Assembly (NCBI GenBank): GCA_002841395.1
Contig: PGZM01000005.1
Span: forward strand, 1-64,000
DNA: 64,000 bases
Direction: 5' to 3'
DNA from: Firmicutes bacterium HGW-Firmicutes-9
GTDB lineage: Bacteria; Bacillota; Clostridia; Christensenellales; CAG-138
The position numbers and the translations under genes are program-made. Position 1 is the stretch's first letter; the number at the start of each line of letters is the position of its first letter. Under the pieces are notes generated by a model. That model saw only the letters and a program-made list of their open reading frames with translations, had not been told where the DNA came from and did not search any database. Positions 44,147 through 63,407 of the stretch are shown here, in pieces.

Positions 44147-44154
44147 AATTCGCA

Positions 44155-44232
44155 TCACGGGGGCGTCCGGAGAACAGCCGGACTGAGAAGTACCCTTGGA
44201 ACCTGTTGGGTCATGCCATCGAAGGAAAGTGA
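44155..44232 (+). ncRNA. TPP riboswitch (THI element)
   Basis: tcac...CTGAGAagtACCCttggAACCTGttgGGTcatgCCatcGaAGGaAagtga; P1 ends tcac/gtga; upstream of thiT. Confidence 0.93.
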
Positions 44233-44302
44233 TACATATCGCAGCTTCTTTTTGATGGTCGTCTCACTGGCGACTATTTTTTATTGGGAAAAGGAGACTA
44301 TT

Positions 44303-57580: not shown

Positions 57581-58354
57581 ATGAAACGTTATAGCCGATA
57601 TATCGCATTGCTGCTCGCTATTTTGAGCATACTGACACTCTCCGCCTGCGGCGCTATCATGCAGGCGATTTCGCCCACGCCGTCTCCCTCTCCCACTCCG
57701 ACCGCGACGCCGACGCCAACGCCAACACCTACACCTACGCCGACTCCCACGCCGGAACCCACACCGGTACCAACGCCGACGCCCGCGCCCAGCGTTGACG
57801 AACTGCGGCTGGGAACAGGCGGCGTCTCCGGTTACTATAACAGCTTCTTCCGTTTCGGAATCAAGTTTTCGAGTGACTGGTATATTTGCACGCGCCAGGA
57901 GATGGACGAGGTGAATGGCTTTGATACGCTGGGGAAGTCCGCTTCCGCGACGACGCAGCTGTATATCGATACGCTGAAAGAGGGGCTGCTTGTCTATGAT
58001 ATGAACATCATGCCTTATAACGGCGATGACTATATCATGGTTCTGTTGCTCGACTACTCGGTTAAAAACCCCGGTCAGCACACGGAGCTCACCGTTCTGC
58101 AGGCGATGCAAGATTGGGCGCTGGATTACAACGGCGATCAGAAAGCCGACGCAAAGAATGTGCAGCTAACGACCGTCAACCTGCTGGGCGAAGAACATCC
58201 GATCTATCGCTACGACATGAAGTCCGATGGAAAAGCGATGCATGGCGCGTGCCTCATGCTCAAGCAGGGGACAACGTTTGCGATGATCATCATCGATGCG
58301 ATCGAAACAGAAACGATCGATACCATCTTAAGAGGGTTTTACACGATCAAGTGA
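57581..58354 (+). CDS. Lipoprotein with Pro/Thr linker (array member 2)
   Basis: MKRYSRYIALLLAILSILTLSACGAIMQ + (PT)n linker; SGYYNSFFRFGIKF. Confidence 0.82.
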   Translation: MKRYSRYIALLLAILSILTLSACGAIMQAISPTPSPSPTPTATPTPTPTPTPTPTPTPEPTPVPTPTPAPSVDELRLGTGGVSGYYNSFFRFGIKFSSDWYICTRQEMDEVNGFDTLGKSASATTQLYIDTLKEGLLVYDMNIMPYNGDDYIMVLLLDYSVKNPGQHTELTVLQAMQDWALDYNGDQKADAKNVQLTTVNLLGEEHPIYRYDMKSDGKAMHGACLMLKQGTTFAMIIIDAIETETIDTILRGFYTIK

Positions 58355-58423
58355 AGATGGTAGCATCGGCAATTTTATAATGCGGATCAAGCGTTTCTTT
58401 GCGATGTCATGAAGGAGAGATCC

Positions 58424-59198
58424 ATGAAACATTCTGCCCTATCTACAGCACTTGCCATGCTTTTTGCGCTGCTGATGCTGCTTTCTCTGTCCGGCTGCGC
58501 CGATATCGCGCAGTTCATATCCCCGACGCCAACCCCTACCGCAACGCCGACGGCGACGCCCGTGCCAACGCCGAAACCAACGCCCACACCGGAGCCCACA
58601 CCGGAGCCCACGCCGAGCCCGACACCGGAACCGAGTTTAGAGGATTTTGTGCCGGGAGTGAACGATGAATTGGGCTATCATAGCGATTTCTTCCGGTTTG
58701 GGTTTCCGTTTGCCATTGGGGTATGCAAACTATGATCGCTCCGCCCTCGACGAAGCAAACGGGGTTGACTCTACGAAGATGAGCGATGAGGAGTTTCGGC
58801 GCAGTCTAATCATGCAGCTCAAGATGGACGGCAGCCTCTTGGACTTTGCTTCGTTTTACAACAATACAGATGGCTATGTGCTTGTGTTTGTCGCGGATTT
58901 TAGCAACCCAGAATGGGAAATCGAAACAGAGGCGGATTTGTTAGCGTCCTTTGAGGAGGAGTTGACAACGCCGGAAAAAGAGGAACGCAAGGAAAATCTT
59001 GTGGAGTCCGTTGTCGAGATTGGTGCTGAACAGCACACGGTATTTCTCTACGATGTCATCATCGGCAAGGTGCAGAAAAAGGGAGCAACCTTTGCAATCA
59101 GGCGGGGAACGACATTTTCAATCGTACAGGTTTTAGCCCTCTATGAAGGCGAGATCAATTATTTTCTCGACACGCTGTATTCGCTGGATGAATCTTAA
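58424..59198 (+). pseudogene. Frameshifted lipoprotein (array member 3)
   Basis: 58409..58735 and 58665..59198 are consecutive parts of one family protein; removing one C at 58706/58707 restores [25 protein letters not shown]. Confidence 0.8.
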
Positions 59199-59349
59199 GA
59201 GAACCTCCGGCAAATATTGATACGAAACCATGCGGAACGCAACAAGCCGAAATGTCGCTTTAGTTCTGGGCGAGCTGCTTTTTTAAGCGCATCGCTTGTT
59301 GAGGTCGTTCGGCTATGGTACATTGGAAGAAAATCACCTGGGGGTATCC

Positions 59350-60099
59350 ATGCAAACTCGGAATAAAGTGCTGTCCGTTTTGTTATCTGTTCTGTTCTGC
59401 TTCTCACTTGTGTCTTGCAAGACCGCGCCCGATGTTTCGGAGTTGACGCCAACCCCTACCGCAACGCCGACGGCGACGCCCGTGCCAACGCCGGAACCAA
59501 CGCCCACAACGGAGCCCACGCCGAGCCCGACGCCGGAGCCGAGCATAGAGGACTTTGTGCCAGGAGTGAACGATGAACAAGGATATCACAGCGATTTCTT
59601 CCGGTTTGGGTTCCTTCTTCCAACGGATTTTAAAATTGAGAGCCGTTCGTTTGTAAATCGGAAGAATGAAGTTGATTCCTTATTAACGGATCCGGAAACG
59701 ATACGAAAAGCGTTGATCATGCAACTGAAGATGCAGAACATTCTATTTGATTTTCTCGCAGGCAATATGGATAAACAATGCTATGCACAGATATTAGTCC
59801 GGGACTATGAACCGAATGACATTGTATTTGAATCCGAAGCTGATTTCCTAGAGTATCTTGAGCCGTGGCTGGTTTCTACAGAGGAGAAAGATCGAAACGA
59901 GAACCTGGTAAGGACTGCAGTAGATTTGGCAGGCGAACAGCACCCGCTTTACAGATATGATGTTATCCAAAATAATGTCCGTTTGAGAGGTATGATGTTT
60001 ACTATCAAGCGAGGGACGACATTCGCTGTCATACAAATGACGATGAGAAGCGATGAAGAGCTAGATTATGTGCTCGAATCCTTTTATTGGTTGGACTAG
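59350..60099 (+). CDS. Mosaic lipoprotein with Pro/Thr linker (array member 4)
   Basis: N-terminus like member 1 (MQTRNKVLSVLLSVLFCFSLVSCKTAPDV), linker and C-terminal domain like member 3 ([22 protein letters not shown]). Confidence 0.85.
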   Translation: MQTRNKVLSVLLSVLFCFSLVSCKTAPDVSELTPTPTATPTATPVPTPEPTPTTEPTPSPTPEPSIEDFVPGVNDEQGYHSDFFRFGFLLPTDFKIESRSFVNRKNEVDSLLTDPETIRKALIMQLKMQNILFDFLAGNMDKQCYAQILVRDYEPNDIVFESEADFLEYLEPWLVSTEEKDRNENLVRTAVDLAGEQHPLYRYDVIQNNVRLRGMMFTIKRGTTFAVIQMTMRSDEELDYVLESFYWLD

Positions 60100-61730: not shown

Positions 61731-61804
61731 GTGTTTATCTTCCTCGATTTCTTCGATTGTTTGCAGGATAAGCATACCATGCGCGCCATTTGCTGGCAAG
61801 ATTA

Positions 61805-61876
61805 GGTAAGCTTGCCAATATAGATAAGCTTGCAAATACAAATAAGCTTACAAGTAAAGATAAGCTTCCCAAAATC
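61805..61876. repeat. Four phased 18-bp repeats
   Basis: AAGCTT cores at 61808, 61826, 61844, 61862 (exactly 18 bp apart) within taagcttgcaaataca-like units. Confidence 0.85.
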
Positions 61877-61908
61877 GGAAAAGGCGTTTCCCGCTTGGGG
61901 AAACGCCT
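61872..61908 (-). terminator. Terminator-like hairpin after zinc-ribbon gene
   Basis: aggcgtttcc-cgctt-ggggaaacgcct; minus strand continues ttttccgatttt. Confidence 0.65.
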
Positions 61909-61971
61909 CTCAGGTCGTCTTGGTAAACTACTGATTCCGATTATATCCGAGAACGGAATAAGGGGAATGCG

Positions 61972-62244
61972 TTAGCGCTTGTGGTTCTGGAAGCAGTTGC
62001 TGCAATACACGGGACGGTCGTTTCTCGGTTGGAACGGGATCTTGGTGGGCGATCCGCACTCCGCACAGACCGCATCGAACATCTCGCGATCGTTGCTGCG
62101 CGTGGTCTTCCGGCTGGAACGGCAGTCCTTGCAGCGGACAGGCTCGTTCTGGAACCCTTTCTCCGCGTAAAACTCCTGCTCGCCGGCCGTGAAAACGAAT
62201 TCCTTACCACAATCCTTGCATACCAGTGTTTTGTCTTGGAACAT
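61972..62244 (-). CDS. Zinc-ribbon protein with several CxxC pairs
   Basis: MFQDKTLVCKDCGKEFVFTAGEQEFYAEKGFQNEPVRCKDCRSSRK...CAECGSPTKIPFQPRNDRPVYCSNCFQNHKR; RBS agggga upstream. Confidence 0.88.
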   Translation of the reverse strand: MFQDKTLVCKDCGKEFVFTAGEQEFYAEKGFQNEPVRCKDCRSSRKTTRSNDREMFDAVCAECGSPTKIPFQPRNDRPVYCSNCFQNHKR

Positions 62245-62281
62245 TTGGATTTTTCCCCTTTTCGGTTCGTGAAAATTTTTT

Positions 62282-62513
62282 GATATCCGAGTGCCGGCTG
62301 ACCTGGTTTTTGCCCCCACACCCGCCAACTGGAAGTGTCGCTACCCGGCGATGTGCCTCTCACTACTGCCTCTCTCGAAATGCATGTTTAGAAATGCTTC
62401 GGTTGGACTTACTTCTAGACCGCACCATGCTCACGGGGCTTTGCCCGCTTACGTGGATCGTTTTGCCTGCGACTGGCATCGATTTTCAACCACAGACCCG
62501 ATACACGGATACC
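62282..62513 (-). ncRNA. Candidate structured RNA or structured 5' leader (~232 nt), unidentified
   Basis: 8-bp end pairing GGUAUCCG/CGGAUAUC; internal hairpins; possible pseudoknot; start position matches promoter TTGCAA-18-TATACT (62549..62520). Confidence 0.65.
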
Positions 62514-62519
62514 AAAGTT

Positions 62520-62549
62520 AGTATATTACACACGGTTGTAAAATTGCAA
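62520..62549 (-). promoter_or_regulatory. SigA-type promoter for the structured RNA
   Basis: Minus strand TTGCAA-N18-TATACT, predicted +1 about 62513. Confidence 0.65.
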
Positions 62550-62691: not shown

Positions 62692-63261
62692 TCATTTGTG
62701 TGCCGGTTCGTGGTCGCCGTATTGTGCGCGGGGACCGCCAACATATTTTGGACGCGTCTTTGCGAGGATGAAGGAAGCCTCGCCGATCCTGCGCTGCTCC
62801 GTATGGACGGGCACCACGACGGGATGCAGATGCATGCCGATCAGCGTGCCGCCGATGTCCATGCCGAGCGCGGCAAGGCCCGCTACGTTCTCCACCATCA
62901 CCCGGTCGGGGATGCGGGAATATGCTTCGGTTGCGAATGCGCCGCCTGCGTGCAGCCACGGGCGCACCCAGACTTCCTGCAGGTGATATTGCTCCATGCA
63001 GGCGCGGCTTGTGCAGATTGCGCGGTTGATGTGCTCGCAGCCCTGCACGGCAAGATATAACCCCGCCGCGGTCACCTTCGGCAGAATCGCGTCCATGACG
63101 GCCTTCGCGGCCTCCTCGCTGGAAGCGGAGCCGATGCGCTTGCCAACGATCTCGCTCGTCGAGCAGCCAATGATGAAGATATCGCCCTTGCGATACTCCG
63201 CGCTGCTCAGAATCAAATCGACGGCCTCCGCCGCCTGGCGGGTTAGTTCTGTGTAATCCAT
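62692..63261 (-). CDS. TIGR01440/UPF0340 family protein
   Basis: Start MDYTELTRQAAEAVDLIL; IIGCSTSEIVGKRIGS, VQGCEHINRA, GMHLHPVVVPVH. Confidence 0.9.
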   Translation of the reverse strand: MDYTELTRQAAEAVDLILSSAEYRKGDIFIIGCSTSEIVGKRIGSASSEEAAKAVMDAILPKVTAAGLYLAVQGCEHINRAICTSRACMEQYHLQEVWVRPWLHAGGAFATEAYSRIPDRVMVENVAGLAALGMDIGGTLIGMHLHPVVVPVHTEQRRIGEASFILAKTRPKYVGGPRAQYGDHEPAHK

Positions 63262-63407
63262 GTTTTTCACCTCTATGGTTTGGTCAGGTCTCTTCCACAG
63301 CTGCGAAAGAAACCGTATGCTCAGAAACACAGTATAGCACAATTTTCTCACTATTTCCGCGCATTTTTCACGTAAGTTGCGCGAATATTGTGTGTTATAC
63401 TTGCTCT

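Follow-up and report, generated by a model that had tools for sequence, protein, structure and literature searches.

A raiA (ModT) RNA immediately preceding a zinc-finger gene in Firmicutes bacterium HGW-Firmicutes-9

The raiA (ModT) RNAs are a described class of bacterial noncoding RNAs with solved structures yet no known biochemical mechanism. In Clostridioides difficile, a sigma-A promoter drives ModT, which ranks with the most abundant transcripts, works in trans and influences the growth transition, c-di-GMP and sporulation (PMC11706538). The raiA RNA of C. acetobutylicum has been resolved by cryo-EM at about 3 Å, with helices P1-P8 and the pseudoknots pk-1 and pk-2 (PMC11751092). Published work on the class points to a trans-acting RNA (PMC11706538, PMC11477304), while the corresponding Rfam entry, RF03072, is filed under the type 'Cis-reg; riboswitch'. 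Reported neighbours are comFC and raiA (PMC11706538), as well as raiA and periplasmic-binding-protein genes (PMC11477304). Here, we describe a further example of this class.

The window analysed is a 64,000-nt stretch of contig PGZM01000005.1. A covariance-model search with Rfam returned a full-length match to RF03072 (model positions 1-209) at 62289-62506 on the minus strand, with a score of 183.7 bits, nearly twice the gathering cut-off of 101.3, and an E-value of about 1e-48. Together with an 8-bp extension of P1 the RNA spans 62282-62513 (-). An earlier note, made from the letters of the window alone, had described this segment as a promoter-driven structured RNA of unknown class, named raiA as a possible match and proposed an Rfam search. 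That search identified the RNA as raiA, so that its novelty is refuted and its existence is not. The reading as a new class had the initial failure to recognize the RNA as its sole support and is contradicted by the full-length match and the conserved core described below, leaving it a practically negligible probability. The segment is a real structured RNA of the raiA (ModT) class; what is less familiar is the zinc-finger gene directly downstream. No other Rfam family was significant at the segment, and the Pfam search found no supported open reading frame (ORF) covering it, in agreement with the earlier assessment of its coding potential. The 3.17-Mb genome carries one copy as judged by an RF03072 search. 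Elsewhere in the window, Rfam matched only a TPP riboswitch, located at 44149-44245 (+) and scoring 55.1 bits against a cut-off of 54.3.

To characterize the fold, an alignment of 51 homologs was evaluated against a structure in which the Rfam helices were combined with P3 and pk-1, as the nested Rfam structure omits P3 and shows pk-1 as an ordinary stem. In the combined structure 86.6% of cells were paired and 35 of 59 pairs carried changes on both sides, in line with the covariation anticipated in the earlier note. None of 500 shuffles showed covariation as high, although kinship alone can lift sequences above shuffles without any structure, and more weight is therefore given to the published structure and to a control in which the combined structure was slid by 1 to 3 columns, whereupon pairing dropped to 26-46%. 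The hairpin AUCG..GCC(AGUCGCA)GGC..CGAU at 62457-62483 (-) was paired in 100% of the 51 sequences, showed compensatory changes and corresponds to P3 of the cryo-EM structure (PMC11751092). Its loop, AGUCGCA at 62468-62474 (-), forms the 5' half of pk-1 and pairs with UGCGGUC at 62418-62424 (-), with 97% of cells paired and three of seven pairs changed on both sides. Further, the ends GGUAUCCG and CGGAUAUC pair as previously proposed and lengthen P1 past the Rfam model. The published raiA core of P1, P3 and pk-1 is present. The fold energy was unremarkable (z = -0.48), a value that is uninformative on its own.

Other elements drawn by eye in the earlier note held up to different degrees. Its H-type pseudoknot was correct in one half: CCAAC at 62402-62406 (-) and GUUGG at 62325-62329 (-) were 100% paired with compensatory changes in three of five pairs, whereas GAAGU/ACUUC reached 71%, the partner of ACUUC being the GAGA/GAGG side of a different helix that is 97.5% paired. 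The hairpin UCGC(cggguA)GCGA was paired in 56% and was likewise rejected, since together with GAAGU/ACUUC it performed no better than column shuffles. The variable hairpin CGAA-GCAU...AUGC-AU-UUCG at 62376-62401 (-) was retained, with 94-97% pairing and covariation at the stem base and 97% pairing with compensatory changes for CGAA/UUCG. In case of the CACG/CGUG and GGGC/GCCC element, a variable hairpin is real while its exact register is not conserved, the Rfam register of GGGC/GCCC being 47.7% paired in a gapped part of the alignment.

A predicted sigma-A-type promoter, TTGCAA-N18-TATACT, precedes the RNA at 62549-62520 (-) with a 9/12 match. It consists of a -35 element at 62544-62549 (-), whose position is conserved in homologs, and a -10 element at 62520-62525 (-), conserved as TATAAT or TATACT. 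Taken alone such a site is close to chance expectation (two found versus 1.4 expected in 1.2 kb). At the corresponding position, however, a promoter matching at least 9/12 was present in 98% of 59 homologous loci versus 17% in dinucleotide shuffles, and the TTGCAATTT stretch of the promoter region is itself conserved within the same genus. On these grounds the promoter proposed in the earlier note is retained, as judged from sequence.

The gene downstream of the RNA (61972-62244, minus strand, ATG at 62244) encodes a 90-aa protein of the zf_Tbcl plus zf_Tbcl_2 / CxxC-x17-CxxC type. Its matches to PF13451 (91.7 bits), PF23477 (78.8 bits) and TIGR04272 (77.1 bits) place both domains well above their cut-offs. 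The literature found on this family gives no function, and the texts searched report no linkage to raiA RNA. A Shine-Dalgarno (SD) sequence, AAGGGG, lies at 62255-62260 (-), and its placement 7-14 nt from the ATG is conserved in relatives. RNA end and gene start are separated by 44 nt, a gap in which no terminator was found. Past the gene, a terminator-like hairpin, AGGCGTTTCCCC-AAGC-GGGAAACGCCTTTT, is indicated by sequence and fold at 61880-61909 (-); it is GC-rich, falls below the threshold of the terminator scan as it has a T4 tail only, and is the probable end of the transcription unit. The short gap, the missing terminator between RNA and gene and the hairpin after the gene argue for a single transcription unit, so that RNA and zinc-finger gene are probably co-transcribed. 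The earlier view that a structured RNA with its own promoter lies just before this gene is borne out.

Peptidase T follows next, downstream of the zinc-finger gene; between it and the terminator-like hairpin, at 61800-61880, an ATAAGCTTrC-like repeat occurs several times at intervals of about 19 nt. Upstream of the RNA lie a gene for a 189-aa protein (62695-63262, minus strand), of which the stretch tested matched nothing in Pfam or NCBIfam at E 0.001, and then a mutY-like gene. Three further zf_Tbcl paralogs are encoded in the same genome (contigs C1, C5 and C6), none of them preceded by a raiA RNA. Farther away, 57581-60099 (+) is occupied by a row of three lipoprotein-like ORFs that resemble one another and carry proline/threonine (PTPTP) repeats; the two stretches scanned gave no Pfam match.

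Compared with the RNAs of C. difficile (PMC11706538) and C. acetobutylicum (PMC11751092), this locus shares the full-length covariance-model match, P1, P3 and pk-1, CCAAC/GUUGG and the downstream helices, invariant core nucleotides, a sigma-A-type promoter and one copy per genome. It differs in the extended outer part of P1 and in its context, which is a zinc-finger gene at 44 nt without a terminator rather than comFC, raiA or PTS genes. Neither comFC nor raiA was found beside this RNA, a context that is common in the class and does not define it, and the sole raiA/HPF gene of the genome is located on another contig. We consider it very likely that this is a canonical raiA/ModT RNA of about 232 nt, co-transcribed with the zinc-finger gene and with a trans function transferred by homology. 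Transcription would proceed leftward from the sigma-A-type promoter to give an RNA closed by the long P1 stem, in which the P3 hairpin loop forms pk-1. The mature RNA would be released by processing and, by analogy with the published class, would be very abundant and stable and would influence, in trans, both the entry into stationary phase and sporulation. The same transcript would supply the zinc-finger mRNA via read-through, probably with processing, here and in many related families.

The arrangement with the zinc-finger gene is not local to this genome. Among 61 relatives, 36 carried a raiA RNA above the cut-off, as did 57 of the 291 genomes examined from the class, and a phylum-wide sample of 300 genomes gave a raiA match in 35, of which 26 were above the cut-off. 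Of these 35 RNAs, 24 were directly followed by a zinc-finger gene on the same strand, as counted from coordinates. Over the class and phylum samples, about 20 families show the RNA directly before a zf_Tbcl/CxxC gene. Of 54 linked loci, 47 have a spacing of 29-46 nt between RNA and gene, and the remaining seven one of 113-120 nt. Further, among named genome records, the 80 closest to the protein included 27 with a raiA signature upstream of the gene, these 27 being Clostridia-type or Bacillota assemblies. In unlinked raiA loci the RNA is followed by HPF/raiA, by a cold-shock or substrate-binding protein gene or by others, and most of these loci show a terminator-like site within 110 nt past the RNA. 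The apparent contrast in terminators (7/47 linked versus 24/33 unlinked loci) was counted over spans of unequal length and is not significant for equal 30-nt spans. In two families, a cold-shock-protein-like gene follows the raiA RNA after about 92-119 nt (four loci). Hidden RNAs before unlinked zinc-finger genes were also considered and rejected, as no raiA signature was found upstream of the copies tested; an apparent partial RNA in one relative (G003) proved to be a contig end. In the literature searched, which excluded the primary papers of the class (Weinberg 2017; Soares 2024, PMC10861870), 'raiA motif' was not mentioned together with 'zinc', nor 'raiA' together with 'ncRNA' and 'zinc-ribbon'. 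The linkage may already have been reported, and we do not claim its novelty.

The position of the RNA raises the question of control in cis, the earlier note having suggested a riboswitch-like leader. Here, the RNA would act as a leader of the zinc-finger gene in the linked lineages and sense a ligand, a metal or a protein, perhaps the zinc-finger protein itself by way of autoregulation. Like riboswitches, such as the TPP riboswitch of this window, the raiA RNA is structured and sits in a 5' leader position near an ORF. The near-constant, short same-strand spacing in about 20 families and the Rfam type of the family speak for this reading, and the distance argument raised against a riboswitch, namely that ORFs are often hundreds of nucleotides away (PMC11477304), is inapplicable at this spacing. 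Unlike riboswitches, however, no expression platform was found between RNA and gene, neither a terminator/antiterminator nor SD sequestration, and no conserved terminator or anti-SD element was detected. The SD pairing probability was 0.40-0.52 at this locus and mostly 0.2-0.5 in relatives, values at which the SD is not sequestered, so that this type of platform was rejected. Further, the same RNA core stands before unrelated genes elsewhere, often with a terminator after it, and the class acts in trans in C. difficile (PMC11706538). The riboswitch-like leader is thus not supported, and although the short spacing in many families keeps cis-control in consideration, we regard it as quite improbable.

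The zinc-finger protein as a partner of the RNA may be the most interesting open reading of the locus. In its direct form, the protein would be a dedicated RNA-binding partner, forming a ribonucleoprotein (RNP) with raiA RNA in the linked lineages. This is in line with its two-zinc-finger architecture and with initial evidence of protein association for ModT (PMC11706538). Within the bacterium's own family, the gene was present in 28 of 29 genomes with the RNA and in two of eight without it (p about 8e-5, calculated by hand and uncorrected for relatedness). On the protein tree, linkage to the RNA required eight changes compared with 20.1 in shuffles (0 of 500 as low), the tree resting on few columns with weak deep branches. 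In the wider class, however, the gene is common without the RNA and the RNA common without the gene: the zinc-finger family occurs in 163 of 291 genomes, and the gene was found in 39 of 57 genomes with the RNA and 124 of 234 without it. The protein is therefore not specific to the RNA, nor does the RNA require it, and its wide occurrence without the RNA together with its absence from 18 of 57 RNA-bearing genomes argues against an obligate partner. Neither a solved relative nor a significant fold match of the protein was found, and synteny alone may mirror shared transcription. We therefore treat a dedicated RNP as a tentative proposal that is considerably more likely wrong than right, and would say only that the protein may work with the RNA. 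With similar reserve we put forward the broader idea that raiA RNA and the zf_Tbcl/CxxC protein constitute an old functional pair across much of the phylum, either as an RNP or as an autoregulated unit.

In two families the raiA-like RNAs are compact, with a length of about 113-123 nt, and score 42-59 bits, below the Rfam cut-off (eight loci in family f137 and three in f189). P1, P3 and a pk-1-like pairing are preserved in these RNAs and the P4-P8 half is lost; they are possibly a minimal raiA core. They retain a sigma-A-type promoter and a zinc-finger gene about 40 nt downstream. As the linkage persists in RNAs reduced to a P1, P3 and pk-1 core of about 115 nt, the protein, if it does form an old functional pair with the RNA, would offer a missing way into the workings of raiA RNA; its occurrence next to the RNA in many families, those with compact RNAs included, makes it a concrete candidate partner or target.
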